42,921 nucleotides of DNA from a virus, in the IMG/VR virus record IMGVR_UViG_3300007734_000691, positions 1-42,921 of that record; one strand, 5' to 3'. Each line of letters opens with the position of its first letter. The first letter of the stretch is position 1. The notes below the pieces were generated by a model that saw nothing but the letters and a program-made list of their open reading frames with translations, was not told where the DNA came from and searched no databases. Shown one piece after another: positions 5,469-42,921 of this stretch. The translations under genes were made by a program, and so were the position numbers.

Positions 5469-6229
5469 CCCTCATCCTCAACGGCACAGACAACAGCGCC
5501 ACCACCCCAGCGGTGACCGGGGGCACTGCGGGCACATCTACAGGCCCGTACTACCCAACAACAAACCAATGGGCGGTATCCACCGCAGGTACACAAGCCT
5601 TGCTGATAAATGCAAGCCAGAACGTGGGGATTGGTACTGCTACACCCGGATACAAACTTGTAACTGCACAAGCCTCTGGTGATTTGATTACCTCCATGCA
5701 GGGCGCTGTCAAGACTTGGAACATTCGCAATCAAGCCGATGGTACTTTTGGGTATTTTGACAATTCAGTTTCTGCTTGGCGTTATTACTACGATACAAGC
5801 AATAACCACATCTGGTTTACCGGTGCAAGTGTAGAAAGAGCACGCATTTCTTCCGCTGGCGGTTTCTCAGTAGGGACAACATCCGACCCCGGCGCTGGTG
5901 CGATATACGCAACAGGCAACATCACTGCGTACTTCTCTGATGACCGCTTGAAGACCAAGCTGGGCAACATCCAAGACGCGCTGAGCAAGGTCAAAGCACT
6001 GAGCGGTTTCTACTACGAGGCCAATCAAACGGCGCAAGACTTGGGCTACAAGCCTGTCCGAGAGGCTGGTGTATCTGCCCAGCAAGTGCAAACGGTGATG
6101 CCTGAAGTGGTCAAGCCAGCCCCAATCGACGCGCAATACCTGACCGTTGACTACGAGCGCCTAGTCCCTCTGCTGATTGAAGCAATCAAGGAATTAGATG
6201 CCAAAGTAGAAGGCTTGATGAAAGCATGA
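5465..6229 (+). CDS. Tail fibre/spike with C-terminal S74 intramolecular chaperone
   Basis: The 254-residue protein has an N-terminal beta-repeat stalk ('QNVGIGTATPGYKLVT') and a C-terminal domain of the peptidase S74 / endosialidase intramolecular chaperone type. 'YFSDDRLKTKLGNIQDALSKV' begins at about residue 156, and the Ser-Asp pair is S158-D159. The rest of the domain, 'AGVSAQQVQTVMPEVV' and 'DYERLVPLLIEAIKELDAKV', ends in the usual coiled coil. In this family the chaperone trimerises the fibre and then cuts itself off before the Ser. It needs no separate helper, consistent with the next gene being another fibre overlapping by ATGA. Confidence 0.85.
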   Translation: MTLILNGTDNSATTPAVTGGTAGTSTGPYYPTTNQWAVSTAGTQALLINASQNVGIGTATPGYKLVTAQASGDLITSMQGAVKTWNIRNQADGTFGYFDNSVSAWRYYYDTSNNHIWFTGASVERARISSAGGFSVGTTSDPGAGAIYATGNITAYFSDDRLKTKLGNIQDALSKVKALSGFYYEANQTAQDLGYKPVREAGVSAQQVQTVMPEVVKPAPIDAQYLTVDYERLVPLLIEAIKELDAKVEGLMKA

Positions 6230-7215
6230 CGCTTAACGCTTCTGGCCCAATTAGTCTTGGCGGCGCTACCGCCGGACAGTCCGTCAACTTGGAGTTGGGC
6301 TTATCCGCGACTGCACAAATATCGTTCAATGATGCCGCTGTTCGCACGCTGACTGGAACCACGGCTGGAACTGCGCTGGTCATGCCAACCAACTTTTACG
6401 GCAAATCCAATACAACTCCAACGGTAGAGTATTTGGTAGTTGCGGGAGGGGCTGGTGGGGGCAGTAGTAATAACGACTGCCGTGGCGGCGGTGGTGGCGC
6501 AGGGGGAATGCTTACAGCATCAGGTTTCAGCGTAGCTTCGGGAGTGGCATTGACCGTCACAGTGGGTAGCGGTGGAGCCGTTGGTAGCGCTGGCTCGAAT
6601 TCTGTCTTCTCTTCCATAACATCCACAGGCGGCGGGGCTGGCGGCGGCCCTATTGGGCAGAATGGATTTTCTGGTGGCTCAGGTGGTGGCGGCGGACAAA
6701 ACGGCTCCACTTCGGGCGGAGCGGGTACTGCTGGGCAAGGAAATAACGGCGGCAACGGCGGCTACGATGCAAACGGCGGGCAATGCGGCGGTGGCGGTGG
6801 CGGCGCAGGTGCTGTTGGCGGCACTGGCAATGGAAGCGTTCAAGGCGTTCCCGGTGGCAATGGTTTGCAGTCTTCAATTACGACTACATCAACTTATTAC
6901 GCGGGCGGCGGCGGAGCAGGCGGTCAAGTTGATGGCGGTATTGGTGGGCTTGGCGGAGGCGGAAATGGTGGAGATGGACGTGGTGATGGAGCCAGACCTG
7001 CCGGTCCTGCAACGCCCGGAGTTACAAATTCTGGTGGTGGTGGAGGTGGAGGTGGCCCCGCAGGAGCTGCCGCCGCTGGTGGCTCTGGAATTGTCATTAT
7101 TCGCTACTCCAACACATACCCAAACGCAGCCTCTACAACTGGTTCACCAACATTCACCAATGCTGGCGGCTATAAAATTTACAAATTCACTGGCTCAGGG
7201 AGCATCACGTTCTAA
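6226..7215 (+). CDS. Glycine-rich tail fibre/adhesin
   Basis: The 329-residue protein has an N-terminal module of about 60 residues ('LNASGPISLGGATAGQSVNLEL', then 'MPTNFYGKS'), common in phage fibre genes. A long Gly-rich region (about 70-290) follows, with many GGGG/GGAGG runs. It ends with 'GIVIIRYSNTYP' and 'YKIYKFTGSGSITF', typical closing strands of glycine-rich phage domains. Such regions can pack as polyglycine-II helices, as in the gp38-type adhesin of phage S16, and bind host receptors. It overlaps both neighbours. Low sequence complexity makes the exact family uncertain. Confidence 0.75.
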   Translation: MTLNASGPISLGGATAGQSVNLELGLSATAQISFNDAAVRTLTGTTAGTALVMPTNFYGKSNTTPTVEYLVVAGGAGGGSSNNDCRGGGGGAGGMLTASGFSVASGVALTVTVGSGGAVGSAGSNSVFSSITSTGGGAGGGPIGQNGFSGGSGGGGGQNGSTSGGAGTAGQGNNGGNGGYDANGGQCGGGGGGAGAVGGTGNGSVQGVPGGNGLQSSITTTSTYYAGGGGAGGQVDGGIGGLGGGGNGGDGRGDGARPAGPATPGVTNSGGGGGGGGPAGAAAAGGSGIVIIRYSNTYPNAASTTGSPTFTNAGGYKIYKFTGSGSITF

Positions 7216-24740: not shown

Positions 24741-24935
24741 TCAAGTCCTCCAGACCCGCAAGCCCTTCACTCCATCCATGATGACCACCTTGGTAACGGT
24801 GGTTATCTTCAGCCGTTTTGTAACTACAGCCAACGTAGCCCGCGCCGACTTGTGGTCGATGCAGGGGATGAAAAATGAATAGCCCTTGCGGAACTTGGAC
24901 CAGTCAATCCTGTACGCTACTGTCTCGATTTTCAT
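24741..24935 (-). CDS. Small basic hypothetical protein at the end of the leftward operon
   Basis: The 64-residue product starts at ATG 24935 inside the end of the primase-helicase gene (32-base overlap). It contains 'YRIDWSKFRKGYSFFIPCID' and 'TKVVIMDGVKGLRVWRT', a pattern I recall in short proteins of other phages ('IDW.KF..G.SFF.P' and 'GLRVWR'). It is strongly basic (predicted by Lys/Arg count), so nucleic-acid contact is possible. It is last before the intrinsic terminator. The function is unknown. Confidence 0.65.
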   Translation of the reverse strand: MKIETVAYRIDWSKFRKGYSFFIPCIDHKSARATLAVVTKRLKITTVTKVVIMDGVKGLRVWRT

Positions 24936-27756
24936 CTGTGCCCAGTATGGCTTCTACCCGTAGGGTCTCGTCGGCAGAAGTGTCGAACTTCAAGACGCGC
25001 ACAGCAGGGGACACAATCTTCATGCCCTTGGACATGCGCTTGTTGGTGGCCTCTAGGAAAATCCCTAGGTCGGTCAGCTTCTTCAGCAGCTCCTTGTAGC
25101 CGGTCTGCTGCTTGACGCAGAAAACCTTGAACTGCTTGGCCGAGATGTAGAGGTGCTTGGTATCCGGCTCGTAGCGTATGAGCAACTCCCCTCGTGGCTC
25201 CAGCGTCGGCAGTGCCGACAGATTGCTGCGAGAATCGACCTCCCCGTTGACCACCAGCGTGTTGTAGATATGCGCATTGATGAACTCGCCCAGTGTGGAG
25301 ATGGGGGACAAACTTGGGGGCTTCACATCGACGCGCATCTCACCCAGCATGCCTTTCAACCAAGCGTACACGTTGCCCATGTGGTAGTCGTGCAATCCAA
25401 GCTCCTTGGCAATCAAGCCACCGGCAATGTTGCATGCCGACTGCGCAGACCAAAAGCGTTCCCGTGAAGTGAACTGGACTTCCTTGTCGATGCGGGCCTG
25501 TACTTTACGCACAAGGTCTTGGCAGTACTCAAGGTTGTTGACCAAGAAGCTGATGTAGATTTCCCCAGCGTGGCCGTAGTTCTCGTTCAGTTGGTGGTCA
25601 AACATCTGCTTGCCGAGGGCCACGCCGATTACGTCATTCGGCTCAATCTTGTACTCCAGCAAACGCACCGACTCACCGTCCGGGGTGTTCTTCAACTCAC
25701 CCAGCTTTTCGTAGAAGCTGCAATTAGCCGAGGCCAAGGTCATGTTCTTCCATGAGGTGTTGTTGATGCGCAATGCGTTGGTCTGAGACTTCGCGCGGTT
25801 CTTGCCCCGCCCGTGGCTGATGCCGTAAGACAAGTCAGAAAAGTCTGCGCTCGTCATATTGGTAATCTCGTCGCAGGTGAAGGGTAGGCTGTTCATGACC
25901 CCTAGCTGCATCATCTTGGCGTTGAGCGTGTCTTTCTCGATGGCCATCAGTTCCTTGGGCTGACCATACACGCTGTTGCACATACGCAAGATGGTGGACT
26001 TCCCCGACCCTGCCATCTCATAGATGACGTTGATGATTGCCCCATCCAAACCCGTGAACTTCATCAGCGGTGAACCGAAGGCAGTCAGGGCAGCAAACGC
26101 ATGGGGCTCCATCCCCGGCAGGGCGTACAGGTTGAACACTTCCTTCCACTTCTCAATAGTGCCCTTGGGGTGAATCTTGTCGGCGAAGAACTCTGTCGCT
26201 GCTGATGGCGGGCTGTAGAACGTACCGTCCTTGGTAATCTCTTTGTCCCCCATGATGAACTTGCTGTCGTTGTCTACCCATCCAAATTGTGTTCTCATAA
26301 TGTCTGCTTTCTTTGCGTATTGCATATTTTTAACGAACGTCACCACATAGACAGCTAGGTTCTCGTACTGCTTGTGGTGGGCCATGACTCCTTGCTGGGC
26401 CAATGCTTTGCGCAGTTCGTCCTTGGACGATATAGCTGCGGTGGATATGGAAAATTCTCTGATGCCATCGTGCGGCAAATGCAGCCTAAACAGTATGACT
26501 TCACCCGCTTCAGGGTCGCGCATACGTTTAACCACGTAGAAATCATGCTCATAGACCAGCGTAGGGTCTGCTTCCTCATCGTCGGCGCGTCGATAGACAC
26601 CACCGTTTTTCCCACGGAAGAATGGGAACGGATACTCAGGTATGTTTACGGTTACCTGCTTACCCTCTTTAGCTTCAACAACCACTTCATTGTCTTCATC
26701 GTCGGCTTCCTCTATCTCTAGCCCCAGCACAATCGGGGATTTAATCTTGCCCTTGTGCACACAGCCATCGCACCCGCCGGGGTTTTGCTTCTCGAACGTC
26801 GTGCAGTGGTGTGGCCCGCCCTTGGTCAGCAAGTGATACACCTTAGCTTCAACCTCGCTAGGGTCGTAGTCAGGGTATTGGTCTGACATCTTCTTGGTCG
26901 CACTGTCTTTGTCTACGCAGAACGCAGCAATCGACAGGGCTGAGCGCCACAAAGGTTCCTCAAGGGTTGCTTGGTTCTCAAAACAATAAATCAGTTGGTT
27001 GCAGCCTTCGCCTTTGGCCGACTTCATCATGATGGTTTTGAACCGCTTGACCTTGTTTGCCATCAACGCTTCCATCATCGGGCTCATAGAGCTTGGGACG
27101 AAGGCAGGCTTCTCAGGCTTGGGGTCAGGTGCGCCCAGCAACTCTTTCATCTGCGCATACGGAATGCGCACGGTATCGGGGCTCAACACCTCTACAGGCA
27201 TTGGCTCTTCGTTTTTGAAGTTGAATGTGCCGGGTATGCGTAGAACTCGTGATGCTTCAAACACCGACGAATCAACGATGAGACCCTGCTCTACACACAA
27301 CTCCCGTAGCCGACCTGACAATGGTTCCCACTCTGCGCGGGACACCGTTTCTTCAAGCAGCCAGTAGGCATGAATCCCGTAACCGGAACTCACTAGGATT
27401 GGCCTTGGTAGGCCGACAGCCTTGCAGAACTTCTGAAACTCAACAAGCCCAGTTTGCTGGTCGATGTAACCCTTAACCTTGCCCCGCTCGTCGGGTGCAG
27501 CCTTCGTGGGGCCGCAGTCAATGTCCATCCACAGTGCGCGGAAATAGGTGGCGTTCTCGTGTGTGCGGTTGTTCAGGGGGCCGTACTTGGCGCACCCAAA
27601 ATACACATCAGCGTTACGCGCTACAAACTCCGCAACTAGCTCATCAACCTCTTCTCGTGTATCCGCAAATTGCTGGTCAACGTACTTACCAATCCCCAAC
27701 ACGCAGTACCTTCCCCCTACGGGAAGAACCGCATCCAGCAAGTCAAAGTTGGACAT
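24904..27756 (-). CDS. Primase-helicase: AEP primase domain fused to DUF927-type ATPase
   Basis: The 950-residue protein has an N-terminal archaeo-eukaryotic primase-like domain (1-200). 'LWMDIDCG' gives the D78-x-D80 metal pair, 'SSGYGIHAYWLL' the His motif (H129), and D162 in 'IVDSSVF' the third acidic position. A Cys/His cluster (H316, H317, C318, C329, C332) follows and may bind zinc. The C-terminal DUF927-like helicase contains Walker A 'MAGSGKST' (581-588) and Walker B D629-E630. It would prime and unwind DNA at the fork. It lies downstream of the ssDNA-binding candidate in one operon, with only 3 bases after the HTH gene. Confidence 0.85.
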   Translation of the reverse strand: MSNFDLLDAVLPVGGRYCVLGIGKYVDQQFADTREEVDELVAEFVARNADVYFGCAKYGPLNNRTHENATYFRALWMDIDCGPTKAAPDERGKVKGYIDQQTGLVEFQKFCKAVGLPRPILVSSGYGIHAYWLLEETVSRAEWEPLSGRLRELCVEQGLIVDSSVFEASRVLRIPGTFNFKNEEPMPVEVLSPDTVRIPYAQMKELLGAPDPKPEKPAFVPSSMSPMMEALMANKVKRFKTIMMKSAKGEGCNQLIYCFENQATLEEPLWRSALSIAAFCVDKDSATKKMSDQYPDYDPSEVEAKVYHLLTKGGPHHCTTFEKQNPGGCDGCVHKGKIKSPIVLGLEIEEADDEDNEVVVEAKEGKQVTVNIPEYPFPFFRGKNGGVYRRADDEEADPTLVYEHDFYVVKRMRDPEAGEVILFRLHLPHDGIREFSISTAAISSKDELRKALAQQGVMAHHKQYENLAVYVVTFVKNMQYAKKADIMRTQFGWVDNDSKFIMGDKEITKDGTFYSPPSAATEFFADKIHPKGTIEKWKEVFNLYALPGMEPHAFAALTAFGSPLMKFTGLDGAIINVIYEMAGSGKSTILRMCNSVYGQPKELMAIEKDTLNAKMMQLGVMNSLPFTCDEITNMTSADFSDLSYGISHGRGKNRAKSQTNALRINNTSWKNMTLASANCSFYEKLGELKNTPDGESVRLLEYKIEPNDVIGVALGKQMFDHQLNENYGHAGEIYISFLVNNLEYCQDLVRKVQARIDKEVQFTSRERFWSAQSACNIAGGLIAKELGLHDYHMGNVYAWLKGMLGEMRVDVKPPSLSPISTLGEFINAHIYNTLVVNGEVDSRSNLSALPTLEPRGELLIRYEPDTKHLYISAKQFKVFCVKQQTGYKELLKKLTDLGIFLEATNKRMSKGMKIVSPAVRVLKFDTSADETLRVEAILGTDENRDSSVQD

Positions 27757-39538: not shown

Positions 39539-39789
39539 ACTTGCTCCTTCTTAGGTAGGATGTACTTGGCGTACCGCTTCTTTGTGCGTGTGTCTTTGTT
39601 CCACACATTAACGATGGGCCACCCTTCCTCCTTACGCAGTATGTGGATAACCGCAGCCAACCGGAAACAGCCACAGCCATGGAGCGCGTCCAACGGCGTT
39701 ATCTCTTTGCCTTGCAGCAACTCACTCAATACCCAATTGATTTGCGAGGACTTTTCTGCTTTGAAGTCCTCATTGTTTAACGTGCTCAT
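39535..39789 (-). CDS. HTH protein (HTH_39-like)
   Basis: The 84-residue protein contains 'ITPLDALHGCGCFRLAAVIHILRKEEGWPI'-type sequence (in part: ITPLDALHGCGCFRLAAVIH, RKEEGWPI). It is a helix-turn-helix of the small phage family in which 'I(T/S).(L/I)(D/E)A...G..RL.A.I..LR...GW.I' recurs. Basic Lys/Arg segments flank it ('TRTKKRYAKYILPKKEQV'). It is coupled to the flanking genes by overlapping ATGA with the AAGGAGCAAG sequence. It may regulate the surrounding block and is another candidate for binding the palindromes. Confidence 0.75.
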   Translation of the reverse strand: MSTLNNEDFKAEKSSQINWVLSELLQGKEITPLDALHGCGCFRLAAVIHILRKEEGWPIVNVWNKDTRTKKRYAKYILPKKEQV

Positions 39790-40640
39790 GCTTGCTCCTT
39801 CTCTTCATCTGCTGACACAACAAACACCTCGTCATTCACTCGGCAACCTACGCCGCTGAGGAAGAATCCAGCGTCCACTAACTTGAGCATTCCTAGATTT
39901 CTCTTCATGCTCTCAGGCAATGTATTGTCATCGTAAATTTGTACATTGTCATCTATTCTAACTAGGTACTTACCCGAATCTCGCACAACTAAGGCTGCGG
40001 TTTGATTCTCAAATTGGTGGCGAATAGTCTCGATGGACTTCACCTCCATGCGTAGTTCCTTCTCGCCTTCTATGTCGTTTAGTACCCTGTCTCTAACGCG
40101 CGGCTCCAACGTCTGCACATTGGCTAAGAACCCCTCATACCCCGCGCCTAGCACATAAGAAAGCATTGCCTCTCTGAGGTTGTACTTGTGTTTATCAAGG
40201 GCTCGGTCTTTGCCGTTCTCCTGTTGGTTTAGGAACCTACCGGCTTCGGTGTAAGCCTCGGCTAGACGCTCCTTCGGGTTGCGCGGGGAGAACATCTTCT
40301 TGACCTTGAGCACGGCCTTGTCCACATCCTTAGTCTTGTACTCACTACCCCGTACCCTGCCCCCGCTTATGCGGTGATTGCTAACTGCAATAACCCAGTC
40401 CCTCCCGTGGTACATGCGTTTTATAGTCCCAAGCTCTTCCCCATTCGCTACTACCTTGAACGTGCTCACCTCATCGTGCATGTACACAGATGGCACTACG
40501 AACTGCCACAGCGGATATAGCGGGGCCAGCTTCACAATCGTGCTGGCTAGCAGGTGATGGGCTTTCAGACTGCCCTTGGCATAGCCGCCCTTGACTACAT
40601 CGGGGCTCAGCACCACGTTGTTGAATTCAAATATGTTCAT
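39786..40640 (-). CDS. Hypothetical protein of the DUF3150/VWA-like neighbourhood
   Basis: ATG 40640 has AGGAGT upstream and begins the conserved-looking 'MNIFEFNNVVLSPDVVKGGY'; a longer frame would overlap the DUF3150 gene. The 284-residue product includes 'GYAKGSLKAHHLLASTIVKL', a Lys/Arg-rich middle ('RISGGRVRGSEYKTKDVDKA') and 'SIETIRHQFENQTAALVVRD'. It shows mixed alpha/beta character and no enzymatic motif I can name. It lies after the DUF3150-like gene by 29 bases and may work with the DUF3150/VWA-like module, which is inference. Confidence 0.6.
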   Translation of the reverse strand: MNIFEFNNVVLSPDVVKGGYAKGSLKAHHLLASTIVKLAPLYPLWQFVVPSVYMHDEVSTFKVVANGEELGTIKRMYHGRDWVIAVSNHRISGGRVRGSEYKTKDVDKAVLKVKKMFSPRNPKERLAEAYTEAGRFLNQQENGKDRALDKHKYNLREAMLSYVLGAGYEGFLANVQTLEPRVRDRVLNDIEGEKELRMEVKSIETIRHQFENQTAALVVRDSGKYLVRIDDNVQIYDDNTLPESMKRNLGMLKLVDAGFFLSGVGCRVNDEVFVVSADEEKEQA

Positions 40641-40669
40641 GTCTACTCCTATGTTGATACTCTTAACTC

Positions 40670-41524
40670 TTACCACTCGAACTTCTTCAGGATGTCGTCC
40701 ACCTTGGACTTCAACGCACTGCGCGAGTCGGCATCCTCTTTGATGCTCTCGATGTCCGCACCTAACATTGTTAGTTCTACCTGCCTACGTGCTTCCTCCA
40801 ACGCAGGGTCGTTCGTCACGTTCAGCTTGGTCAGCAGGGCACACAACTCGATGGGGTTGGTAATCAGCGTGTCGTGATACCGCTTCTTCGCATCCTCACC
40901 CTCAAGGTCGGTCAGCTTCTCAGACATGCCGACAAGCATCTTGTGCAGTCTGTCCCACGGCTCACGCATCGCCTCGGCTAGCTTGTTCTGTTGCTGCGTG
41001 ATGAACTCGGCCTTCATCTCCTCTAGGTCATACGCAGGTATGTCCAGTCGGAAGTCACCAGCCTCGGGCACAGGCTTGACTGTGCGCCGGAACCCGAACT
41101 TCAGCTTCACATCCTCAAGCTCAGGATAGTCCTCGGCCTTGTACAGCCCTTGCAACGCAGTCGGCGCTTCGGCAACCAACCTCGGGTACTCGACGTAGAA
41201 GTTGTTGCACATCATGTCGAACGTCTGCTCGAACCCATTCATGGTCTGCTTGTACTCCATGAACAACGCAGTCGGCAGCATGCGCTCGCCCTTGTCAGCC
41301 CACGGCAGTGTGTGCTTGTTGTGATACAGCCGAACCCGTGCAGCAAAGTCCGAGATGTCTTTGCGTAGGCTAGTACCTGCAAACAGATTCTTCTTCGTCT
41401 GTGACGCACCACGTACCGCCCCCGCATCGCTGTTCACCTTGTCGGTAATCTCGCGGTCAATCTTCGACGCAGGCCACACGCTGATGTTCAGCTCCACTAA
41501 CAATGCGCTACTACTAATACTCAT
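40670..41524 (-). CDS. DUF3150-like protein
   Basis: The 284-residue protein contains 'KKNLFAGTSLRKDISDFAARVRLYHNKHTLPW'-type sequence (in part: AGTSLRKDISDFAARVRLYH). It also has 'LPTALFMEYKQTMNGFEQTF' and 'FGFRRTVKPVPEAGDFRLDI'. These recall DUF3150 phage and bacterial proteins that accompany MoxR-type ATPases and VWA proteins. A basic/acidic helical C-terminal part ends 'SKVDDILKKFEW'. The palindrome at 40762-40774 codes for 'LTMLG' near residues 252-256. Its partner ATPase could be just beyond the right edge. The family call is from memory. Confidence 0.6.
   Translation of the reverse strand: MSISSSALLVELNISVWPASKIDREITDKVNSDAGAVRGASQTKKNLFAGTSLRKDISDFAARVRLYHNKHTLPWADKGERMLPTALFMEYKQTMNGFEQTFDMMCNNFYVEYPRLVAEAPTALQGLYKAEDYPELEDVKLKFGFRRTVKPVPEAGDFRLDIPAYDLEEMKAEFITQQQNKLAEAMREPWDRLHKMLVGMSEKLTDLEGEDAKKRYHDTLITNPIELCALLTKLNVTNDPALEEARRQVELTMLGADIESIKEDADSRSALKSKVDDILKKFEW
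40762..40774. repeat. Palindrome CTAACATTGTTAG, site 3
   Basis: The same 13-bp core as sites 1, 2 and 4 with T at the centre on the plus strand (A on the minus strand). It is inside the DUF3150-like coding sequence. Confidence 0.75.
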
Positions 41525-41742
41525 TTCATTCTCCTTGACTTTGGTTCACCTAATAACTTAAAAATTCCAACCACTCCATCTTTGGTTAGGTCAGATGCAA
41601 TAAGGGTATACGTGTCTGTCCTACCCCACTCAATAGCTTGCACTTTGTACCTCCACGGTTTCGTCCACATTCGCCGTGGAATCAACCCCATGTACTCCCC
41701 TGCTAGTGGTAGCATGTAAACGCTACCCAGTTGAAGTTTCAT
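41521..41742 (-). CDS. Small hypothetical protein, FKLL-ending paralogue
   Basis: The 73-residue product has 'YMGLIPRRMWTKPWRYKVQA' and a later 'LIASDLTKDGVVGIFKLLGE'. The C-terminal 'VVGIFKLLGE' resembles the endings of the proteins at 41919 ('AAVGFIKLLKEN') and 42134 ('VAEGYIKLLKEE'). These three therefore form a small tandem family. It is coupled to the DUF3150-like gene by ATGA at 41521. The function is unknown. Confidence 0.55.
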   Translation of the reverse strand: MKLQLGSVYMLPLAGEYMGLIPRRMWTKPWRYKVQAIEWGRTDTYTLIASDLTKDGVVGIFKLLGEPKSRRMK

Positions 41743-41917
41743 TCATCATTCCTCCTTCGGGTTTAACTTCCACTACGTCTAACACATTGCTTTCACTGTC
41801 GGCGTTATGCAACTGGAAAGCATCGAACATCTTCACCTCTGCCTCGTCTTGTGTCTCGGCTTCAACTTCAACTTCTTGGTAGTAACTAAGTACCACCACT
41901 CCACTCCATAGTTTCAT
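41723..41917 (-). CDS. Small acidic hypothetical protein
   Basis: The 64-residue product begins 'MKLWSGVVVLSYYQEVEVEAE' and continues acidic, with 'KMFDAFQLHNADSESNVLDV'. It overlaps the next gene by 20 bases. A short N-terminal beta-strand is followed by charged residues. No family is recognised. Confidence 0.5.
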   Translation of the reverse strand: MKLWSGVVVLSYYQEVEVEAETQDEAEVKMFDAFQLHNADSESNVLDVVEVKPEGGMMNETSTG

Positions 41918-41918
41918 T

Positions 41919-42137
41919 TCAGTTCTCCTTCAAAAGTTTGATAAATCCAACTGCCGCATCGCGGCTATCTACTGTCGCTACTACCTCACACTCGTTCGTG
42001 TTCCACCACGGCACGCCGTACACCACCAGCCATTTAGAGCTAGAACCCCGCGTTACTACGCCGTAGTTCCGGGTGTACCCTTTGTGCGGGTCAATGACTT
42101 CGGCAAGCCACTCTATTTTTCCTATTTGAACCATCAT
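41919..42137 (-). CDS. Small hypothetical protein, FIKLLKE-ending paralogue
   Basis: The 72-residue product contains 'GKIEWLAEVIDPHKGYTRNY' and 'SKWLVVYGVPWWNTNECEVV', and ends 'VDSRDAAVGFIKLLKEN'. The last part matches the 42134 protein ending. It overlaps that gene by ATGA (42134-42137). The second ATG in 'MMVQIGK' is an alternative start. It appears to be a beta-rich small domain. The function is unknown. Confidence 0.6.
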   Translation of the reverse strand: MMVQIGKIEWLAEVIDPHKGYTRNYGVVTRGSSSKWLVVYGVPWWNTNECEVVATVDSRDAAVGFIKLLKEN

Positions 42138-42361
42138 TCCTCCTTCAAAAGTTTGATGTATCCCTCAGCCACTTCTCGCGTCAGGCCACTCGCTAACACC
42201 TCAACAACACCTTGGTGAACAACGCTTCGCTTCACCACCTGATGCCTATGGGGGCTAGCTGAATACCTAACCTCGTACCAATAGCCATCAAGCCTTGGCA
42301 TCCTCATTAGCGTCTTCGGGTCAGTCCACCCAAACGTATAGCTAGCTTTGGGCTTCGACAT
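42134..42361 (-). CDS. Small hypothetical protein, YIKLLKE-ending paralogue
   Basis: ATG 42361 is chosen as the natural start since the longer frame overlaps the VWA-like gene more extensively; even so, it overlaps that gene's end by 20 bases. The 75-residue product has 'TFGWTDPKTLMRMPRLDGYW' and 'VVHQGVVEVLASGLTREVAE', ending 'GYIKLLKEE'. It shares its ending with 41919 and, more weakly, 41521. These small proteins sit between the VWA-like and DUF3150 genes. Confidence 0.6.
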   Translation of the reverse strand: MSKPKASYTFGWTDPKTLMRMPRLDGYWYEVRYSASPHRHQVVKRSVVHQGVVEVLASGLTREVAEGYIKLLKEE

Positions 42362-42921
42362 GGACGGTCTTCCCGTTCGGTGCAACCTCATCGTTACCCC
42401 CAACGATGCACCACAGTACCTCGGATGTCCACTCGCTGCCCCAATCACCACCTACATACCCGTCGGTCAACACGATGGTGCACTCGGGCTTGATGGCCTT
42501 CTCTTTCAGGTACGCAGATACACAGCTTGGGCTCGTGCCGCCACCGCCTCGGGGCTTGGTAGCTAACAATGTTAGATACCTCGCTACCTTCGTACACCTC
42601 ATGCCTAGCCACCTCGCAGTCCCAGTACAGCAAGTCCACCACCTCGGGGTTGACATCCTCGGCGATAGCTTTGACCTCGGATAAGAACTCGGCTTGCTCT
42701 TGCGCGCCAATCGAACCCGACATGTCAACACCTACTACAAGATGACCAACCTTCTCGCCGATCATGCTAGGCATGTACGTACCCGTGGACAGGAACCGAC
42801 GATTGACTCTGCGCCAGCTACTTGCATCCTTGGCATTGCATGTGGCTTTCACAAACTCACGTAGCACCTCGCGCCAATCCACCTTGGGCTCCAACAACCC
42901 TTCGAGTTCGCGGTCGAGACC
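42342..42921 (-). pseudogene. VWA-like (DUF2201-type) protein, frameshifted and truncated at window edge
   Basis: The gene enters from beyond 42921, and the frame is open to the edge with 'LDRELEGLLEPKVDWREVLR'. Then comes the VWA-like core 'VGHLVVGVDMSGSIGAQEQA' with the MIDAS-type DxSGS. The conserved 'ELLYWDCEVARHEVYEG' type region follows (here 'VDLLYWDCEVARHEVYEG'). After about 42580 the expected 'KPRGGGGTSPSCVSAYLKEK' and 'CTIVLTDGYVGGDWG' are read only in the frame shifted by +1, ending at 42342. So either the gene is broken, or one extra base is present, or there is a programmed shift. It probably pairs with the DUF3150-like gene. Confidence 0.7.
42563..42575. repeat. Palindrome CTAACAATGTTAG, site 4
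   Basis: The 13-bp core, here inside the VWA-like gene and within the short stretch where the reading frame changes. The flanks differ from sites 1 and 2 (G and A on the plus strand). Confidence 0.8.

Follow-up and report, generated by a model that had tools for sequence, protein, structure and literature searches.

NorQ/NorD, RavA/ViaA and CbbQ/CbbO each have two subunits and act on host enzymes that are known; in these systems a MoxR ATPase is paired with a VWA partner carrying a MIDAS, as in the module described here. To our knowledge these systems have neither a DUF3150 subunit nor a DUF2201_N domain. Among viruses, Bacillus phage 0305phi8-36 has been described with a MoxR pair, and cobS/cobT pairs were reported in cyanophages and archaeal viruses (PMC8651126, PMC9503304). 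In group 2.2 jumbo phages a MoxR AAA+ gene is likewise found next to the gene of a vWA protein with an N-terminal metallopeptidase, and the accessible text of that study mentions no DUF3150 subunit (PMC7824862); the relatives of the present locus differ from the jumbo phages described there in being contigs of about 45-67 kb with the module in the replication arm. In plasmid pCAR1, ORF100-103 include a MoxR-like ATPase and a VWA protein within a mobile-element cluster that is conserved among the plasmids and ICEs pCAR1, R478, Rts1, SXT and R391 (PMC2642839); the likeness to the present module is one of description, DUF3150 not being named in that paper. VMAP ternary conflict systems are also three-component assemblies built on MoxR and vWA, with VMAP as the third component whereas it is DUF3150 in the phage module (PMC7159879). 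No VMAP-like Pfam match was found in the module genes, the flanks past P306 being only partly annotated.

The window is the entire IMG/VR contig of 42,921 bp, with the module at its far right end. We propose that the genes found there are the downstream ones of a remodelling machine made of three subunits, one of them an AAA+ motor, whose target, met early, would be a host or replication complex, a reading that we hold to be evenly poised. The left part of the window codes on the plus strand for tail fibre, virion structural and DNA ejection proteins. The right part codes on the minus strand for a primase-helicase, a helicase and a family A DNA polymerase, the latter named from a relative and from the gene map of the relatives. 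Note that the nearest named relatives of the primase-helicase (24904-27756) are found in Pseudomonas phage Rollin, at 29%, and in Rhizobium phages, at 24%, the Rhizobium phage proteins being annotated as ‘putative integrase’. A search of bacterial genomes for a close relative, aimed at naming the host, found none. The features of the module are as follows.

42342-42921, minus strand: VWA protein gene, C-terminal part of the DUF2201_N putative metallopeptidase domain and DUF2201 VWA-like domain, cut by the contig end
42712-42726, minus strand: MIDAS motif 1 (DMSGS) of the VWA gene
42525-42548, minus strand: MIDAS element GGGGTSPS, in the shifted frame of the VWA gene
42456-42470, minus strand: MIDAS element LTDGY, in the shifted frame of the VWA gene
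42134-42361, minus strand: small protein of 75 aa, variable accessory gene
41919-42137, minus strand: small protein of 72 aa, whose C-terminal half resembles its 75-aa and 73-aa neighbours
41723-41917, minus strand: small protein of 64 aa, variable accessory gene
41521-41742, minus strand: small protein of 73 aa, variable accessory gene
40670-41524, minus strand: DUF3150-related protein of 284 aa, belonging to the core of the module
39786-40640, minus strand: P296, fast-evolving companion of 284 aa from ATG 40640, whose place after DUF3150 is conserved in the phage group only

An earlier note, made from the sequence alone, had read the end of the contig as a DUF3150 plus VWA module, and this is borne out by Pfam and PHROG for the VWA protein and by hhalign for DUF3150. 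The 158-aa frame at 42445-42921 matches DUF2201_N (1.2e-7, 32.1 bits; Pfam cut-off 23.2) and the start of DUF2201 (3.4e-6, 27.6 bits; cut-off 26.4), the remainder of the DUF2201 domain lying in the frame 42342-42731 of the minus strand; the gene also matches phrog_1314 (7.9e-29). The intact protein of relatives is encoded by a single ORF of ~400 aa; that of one intact relative scores 106.5 and 47.4 bits for DUF2201_N and DUF2201, respectively. In a DNA alignment all seven relatives have 2 bp that the window lacks between 42562 and 42563, a deletion that breaks the frame. The deleted form was found in no other IMG/VR contig and the matching intact stretch is present in two; the deletion may be real or an assembly error near the contig end. 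A programmed frameshift was dismissed because the relatives carry one open VWA frame. The MIDAS is divided by the frameshift in the window, and the HExxH motif would fall past 42921. Among 44 VWA relatives the MIDAS residues D284, S286, S288, T348 and D372 and the zincin residues H69, E70 and H73 of HExxH are invariant. A second disrupted copy is found at the Dechloromonas SSD3 locus (5756-7110), whose VWA gene is likewise split over two frames. The phrog_1314 label, HNH endonuclease, recurs in many Vibrio phage annotations; it is ruled out for the VWA protein by Pfam DUF2201, and the proteins matched here are DUF2201 VWA/metallopeptidases.

These assignments bear on the possibility that the module supplies CobS/CobT-like subunits for the host cobaltochelatase and so boosts cobalamin synthesis. 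The names cobS/cobT are often given to MoxR-VWA pairs of phages, and such a role was proposed in an archaeal tailed virus study, according to which cobT is often annotated as a peptidase (PMC8651126, PMC9503304). The VWA protein, however, has an invariant HExxH and matches DUF2201 and DUF2201_N, none of its Pfam matches being to a CobT family, while DUF3150 has no known place in the cobalamin pathway, and we regard a cobaltochelatase function as very improbable.

The ATPase gene is missing from the window because the contig stops at 42921. Its predicted presence just past this position was confirmed in relatives that reach further, where a MoxR-type gene coding for a 354-aa AAA+ protein is found upstream of the VWA gene. 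The protein matches Pfam AAA and AAA_5, both above cut-off, and phrog_1297 (1e-49); its nearest solved relative is midasin, in keeping with the MoxR/midasin class. Walker A (GEPGIGKS), Walker B (DE), N138, R155 and R221 are invariant in 30 ATPase sequences, and by analogy the last three are candidates for sensor 1, the arginine finger and sensor 2, respectively.

The third subunit was less readily assigned. Taken alone, the window protein encoded at 40670-41524 has no Pfam match to PF11348 (gathering cut-off 24.9 bits); 3/44 aligned orthologues match this family (best E 4.8e-4), and a plasmid relative scores 22.1 bits against the same cut-off. Alignment of the window family by hhalign to an alignment of DUF3150 members scoring above the Pfam cut-off gives full-length homology over 247 columns (98.5%, E 3e-15). 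A bridge is provided by plasmid proteins (profile-profile E 7e-40 and 3e-25), which align over the full length at 25-30% identity and link onward to further proteins, among them deltaproteobacterial ones, the majority of which pass the DUF3150 cut-off. On the strength of the direct and the bridged profile comparisons the protein is, at the level of sequence, a remote DUF3150 homolog that is not filed as a Pfam member. The AF2 model is mostly helical with low confidence (pLDDT 66.6) and finds no convincing match among solved folds of the PDB, so that an adaptor fold is not established. Homology to P296 or to the VWA protein was tested and none was found. Relatives of the window protein are encoded in 212 of 229 candidate stretches of viral contigs, and a wider scan gave 509. 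A literature search for the term DUF3150 found no mention, though a description elsewhere is possible; phage MoxR-VWA pairs are already known, and it is their DUF3150 subunit that appears undescribed.

The gene order P306-AAA-VWA-DUF3150-P296 is found in 84 IMG/VR loci, the remaining loci being mostly subsets cut by contig ends; the 84 loci come from separate scans that partly overlap and are therefore not a count of independent phages. The AAA, VWA and DUF3150 proteins keep ~66-97% identity to the same references throughout, and together they very probably form one functional unit. The small proteins, which the earlier note had placed between the parts of the module, do not belong to its core: among sampled relatives the gap between the VWA and DUF3150 genes ranges from 4 to 1379 bp, with a varying number of small genes that are not conserved, and they are variable inserts. 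Nor are they clear paralogs, their resemblance being weak and their common end IKLLKEE being encoded by DNA that doubles as the next ribosome site. Both the 75-aa gene (42134-42160) and the 72-aa gene (41919-41945) carry at their ends the DNA ATCAAACTTTTGAAGGAG, which also supplies the ribosome site of the gene that follows.

The companion P296, in contrast to the small proteins, proved to be real, with an alignment of 46 sequences and a confident AF2 model (pLDDT 90), and it still belongs to no known family. A GGAG ribosome site precedes its ATG at 40640 and none is found before the GTG at 40676. Its model has no convincing match in the PDB and matches only uncharacterized Caudovirales proteins in BFVD; no relatives were found among named phages. 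Against the same references as the trio, P296 and P306 drop to about 30-40% identity outside the nearest relatives; diverging far faster than the trio, they are candidates for phage-specific target adaptors.

The earlier note had placed the module in the replication arm, and this holds in two further contigs, where the module heads that arm on the same strand as polA, helicase and primase and opposite to the virion genes. Gene position therefore favours an early role over virion assembly, although it proves nothing. A function in virion assembly or maturation, with the MoxR-VWA chaperone pair and the metallopeptidase domain folding or processing structural proteins, has precedents: it was proposed for group 2.2 jumbo phages, which have a MoxR protein and a vWA protein whose N-terminal domain is a metallopeptidase (Iyer et al. 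2021, PMC7824862), and in Acidianus two-tailed virus (ATV) p618 and p892 interact, p618 is found in virions and a tail role is supported (PMC4124505). The module, however, heads the replication arm and is not encoded on the strand of the recognized virion genes but on the other one, and the same trio is carried by conjugative-type plasmids, which have no virions; a purely virion role is disfavoured on these grounds and is judged unlikely. The co-orientation with polA, helicase and primase might instead reflect a direct role in DNA replication or recombination, the machine remodelling the phage or plasmid replisome. Variants with a CDC48-like motor, described below, adjoin PDDEXK nuclease and UvrD helicase genes, which would fit such a role, but some plasmid copies adjoin type IV secretion and PRTRC genes instead and no DNA-binding domain was recognized; we rate this role as improbable.

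The module is not confined to phages, for plasmids carry the trio too. Uncultured phages in their hundreds and numerous plasmids of conjugative type have it in common, and for this reason it is probably of general use to DNA that invades a host and not peculiar to a single phage. Genomes were scanned with plasmid DUF3150 proteins as seeds, and the resulting loci plus those of retrieved plasmids and phages make up a set of 85 plasmid, genome and phage loci. AAA, DUF3150 and VWA genes are all present in 64 of them, usually in the order AAA-DUF3150-VWA and mostly in Burkholderia, Paraburkholderia, Caballeronia and Cupriavidus; several of these trio loci adjoin type IV secretion genes or sit on plasmids typed as conjugative or mobilizable. 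The plasmid trio of Burkholderiales and Rhodospirillales (for example NZ_CP062805.1, NZ_CP139167.1) comprises the same three families, with a DUF3150 protein 25-30% identical to that of the window, but differs in its AAA-DUF3150-VWA order; P296 and P306 were not seen there, and some copies adjoin T4SS or PRTRC genes. Planktothrix phage Pag-Yong1 and Synechococcus phage MinM2 (OL906435.1, OQ594354.1) likewise code for MoxR, DUF3150 and VWA in one cluster, also in the order AAA-DUF3150-VWA, with DUF3150 27.7% identical; neither of the two genes that follow VWA is a homolog of P296, which has none among the flanking genes of Pag-Yong1. Named phages include 368 records with this VWA class and four with detectable DUF3150. 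Since most named phages with the VWA class have no detectable DUF3150, the MoxR-VWA pair of phages does not require this protein. Vibrio virus SBP1 (Schitoviridae), with MoxR and DUF2201 VWA and no detectable DUF3150, represents a two-component version.

DUF3150 is also found apart from the MoxR-VWA pair. In 16 loci it occurs without MoxR or VWA. A CDC48-like AAA gene lies upstream of it in 14 of these, both genes being on one strand, and in the remaining two the locus edge is no more than 180 bp from DUF3150. No CDC48-like AAA protein was found in the 64 trio loci. These counts take in related loci and are not numbers of independent events. The loci with DUF3150 after a CDC48-like AAA gene are deltaproteobacterial and planctomycete, with one phage locus (Tunturiibacter phage Tunturi_3), and PDDEXK, UvrD or DUF6094 genes are found near those that were checked. 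That motors of two classes accompany the same conserved protein is the strongest evidence for DUF3150 as a motor partner, and on gene neighbourhood it is best interpreted as a subunit that can be exchanged between AAA+ motors.

The shared occurrence in phages and conjugative-type plasmids, both of which face host defences at entry, could also point to a machine that dismantles or degrades a host defence complex soon after DNA entry. The fast divergence of P296 and P306 beside the slow trio fits an arms race, but it equally fits a simple loss of constraint, and no defence or known anti-defence gene was recognized in the module. PADLOC gave only marginal P-loop matches of the ATPase, so that no known anti-phage defence system was found in the module. 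An anti-defence function is accordingly a minority possibility, unlikely on present evidence.

The proposed early remodelling machine would comprise the MoxR-type ATPase encoded past 42921, the DUF2201 zincin-VWA protein and DUF3150. On the mechanistic model supplied by NorQ/NorD (PMC9976466), and by analogy with RavA/ViaA, the ATPase would form a hexamer, the VWA protein would dock on it and hold the target via the MIDAS metal, and ATP hydrolysis would pull on or open the target, which the HExxH domain may additionally cleave. DUF3150 would be the third subunit, probably linking motor to target as a fixed adaptor, given that it is also found after the CDC48-like motor of another class, with P296 and P306 as candidate target adaptors peculiar to the phages. 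Early timing, which we infer from strand and position only, would place expression together with the replication genes. As the module genes are co-oriented with these, the complex that is remodelled or cleaved may, with about equal chances for and against, be an early host or replication complex. A wider proposal is more tentative and rather doubtful: DUF3150 would be a general exchangeable coupling subunit of mobile-DNA AAA+ motors, either MoxR/zincin-VWA or CDC48-like, that disarm or convert a common host complex at entry, with specificity coming from the fast-evolving phage proteins.

MoxR-VWA pairs are widespread in phages, and in the literature searched no target was reported for those of bacterial phages. 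A third subunit that is common to plasmids and occurs with two motor classes would offer a handle for isolating the complex and its target, and DUF3150 gains a first testable role.
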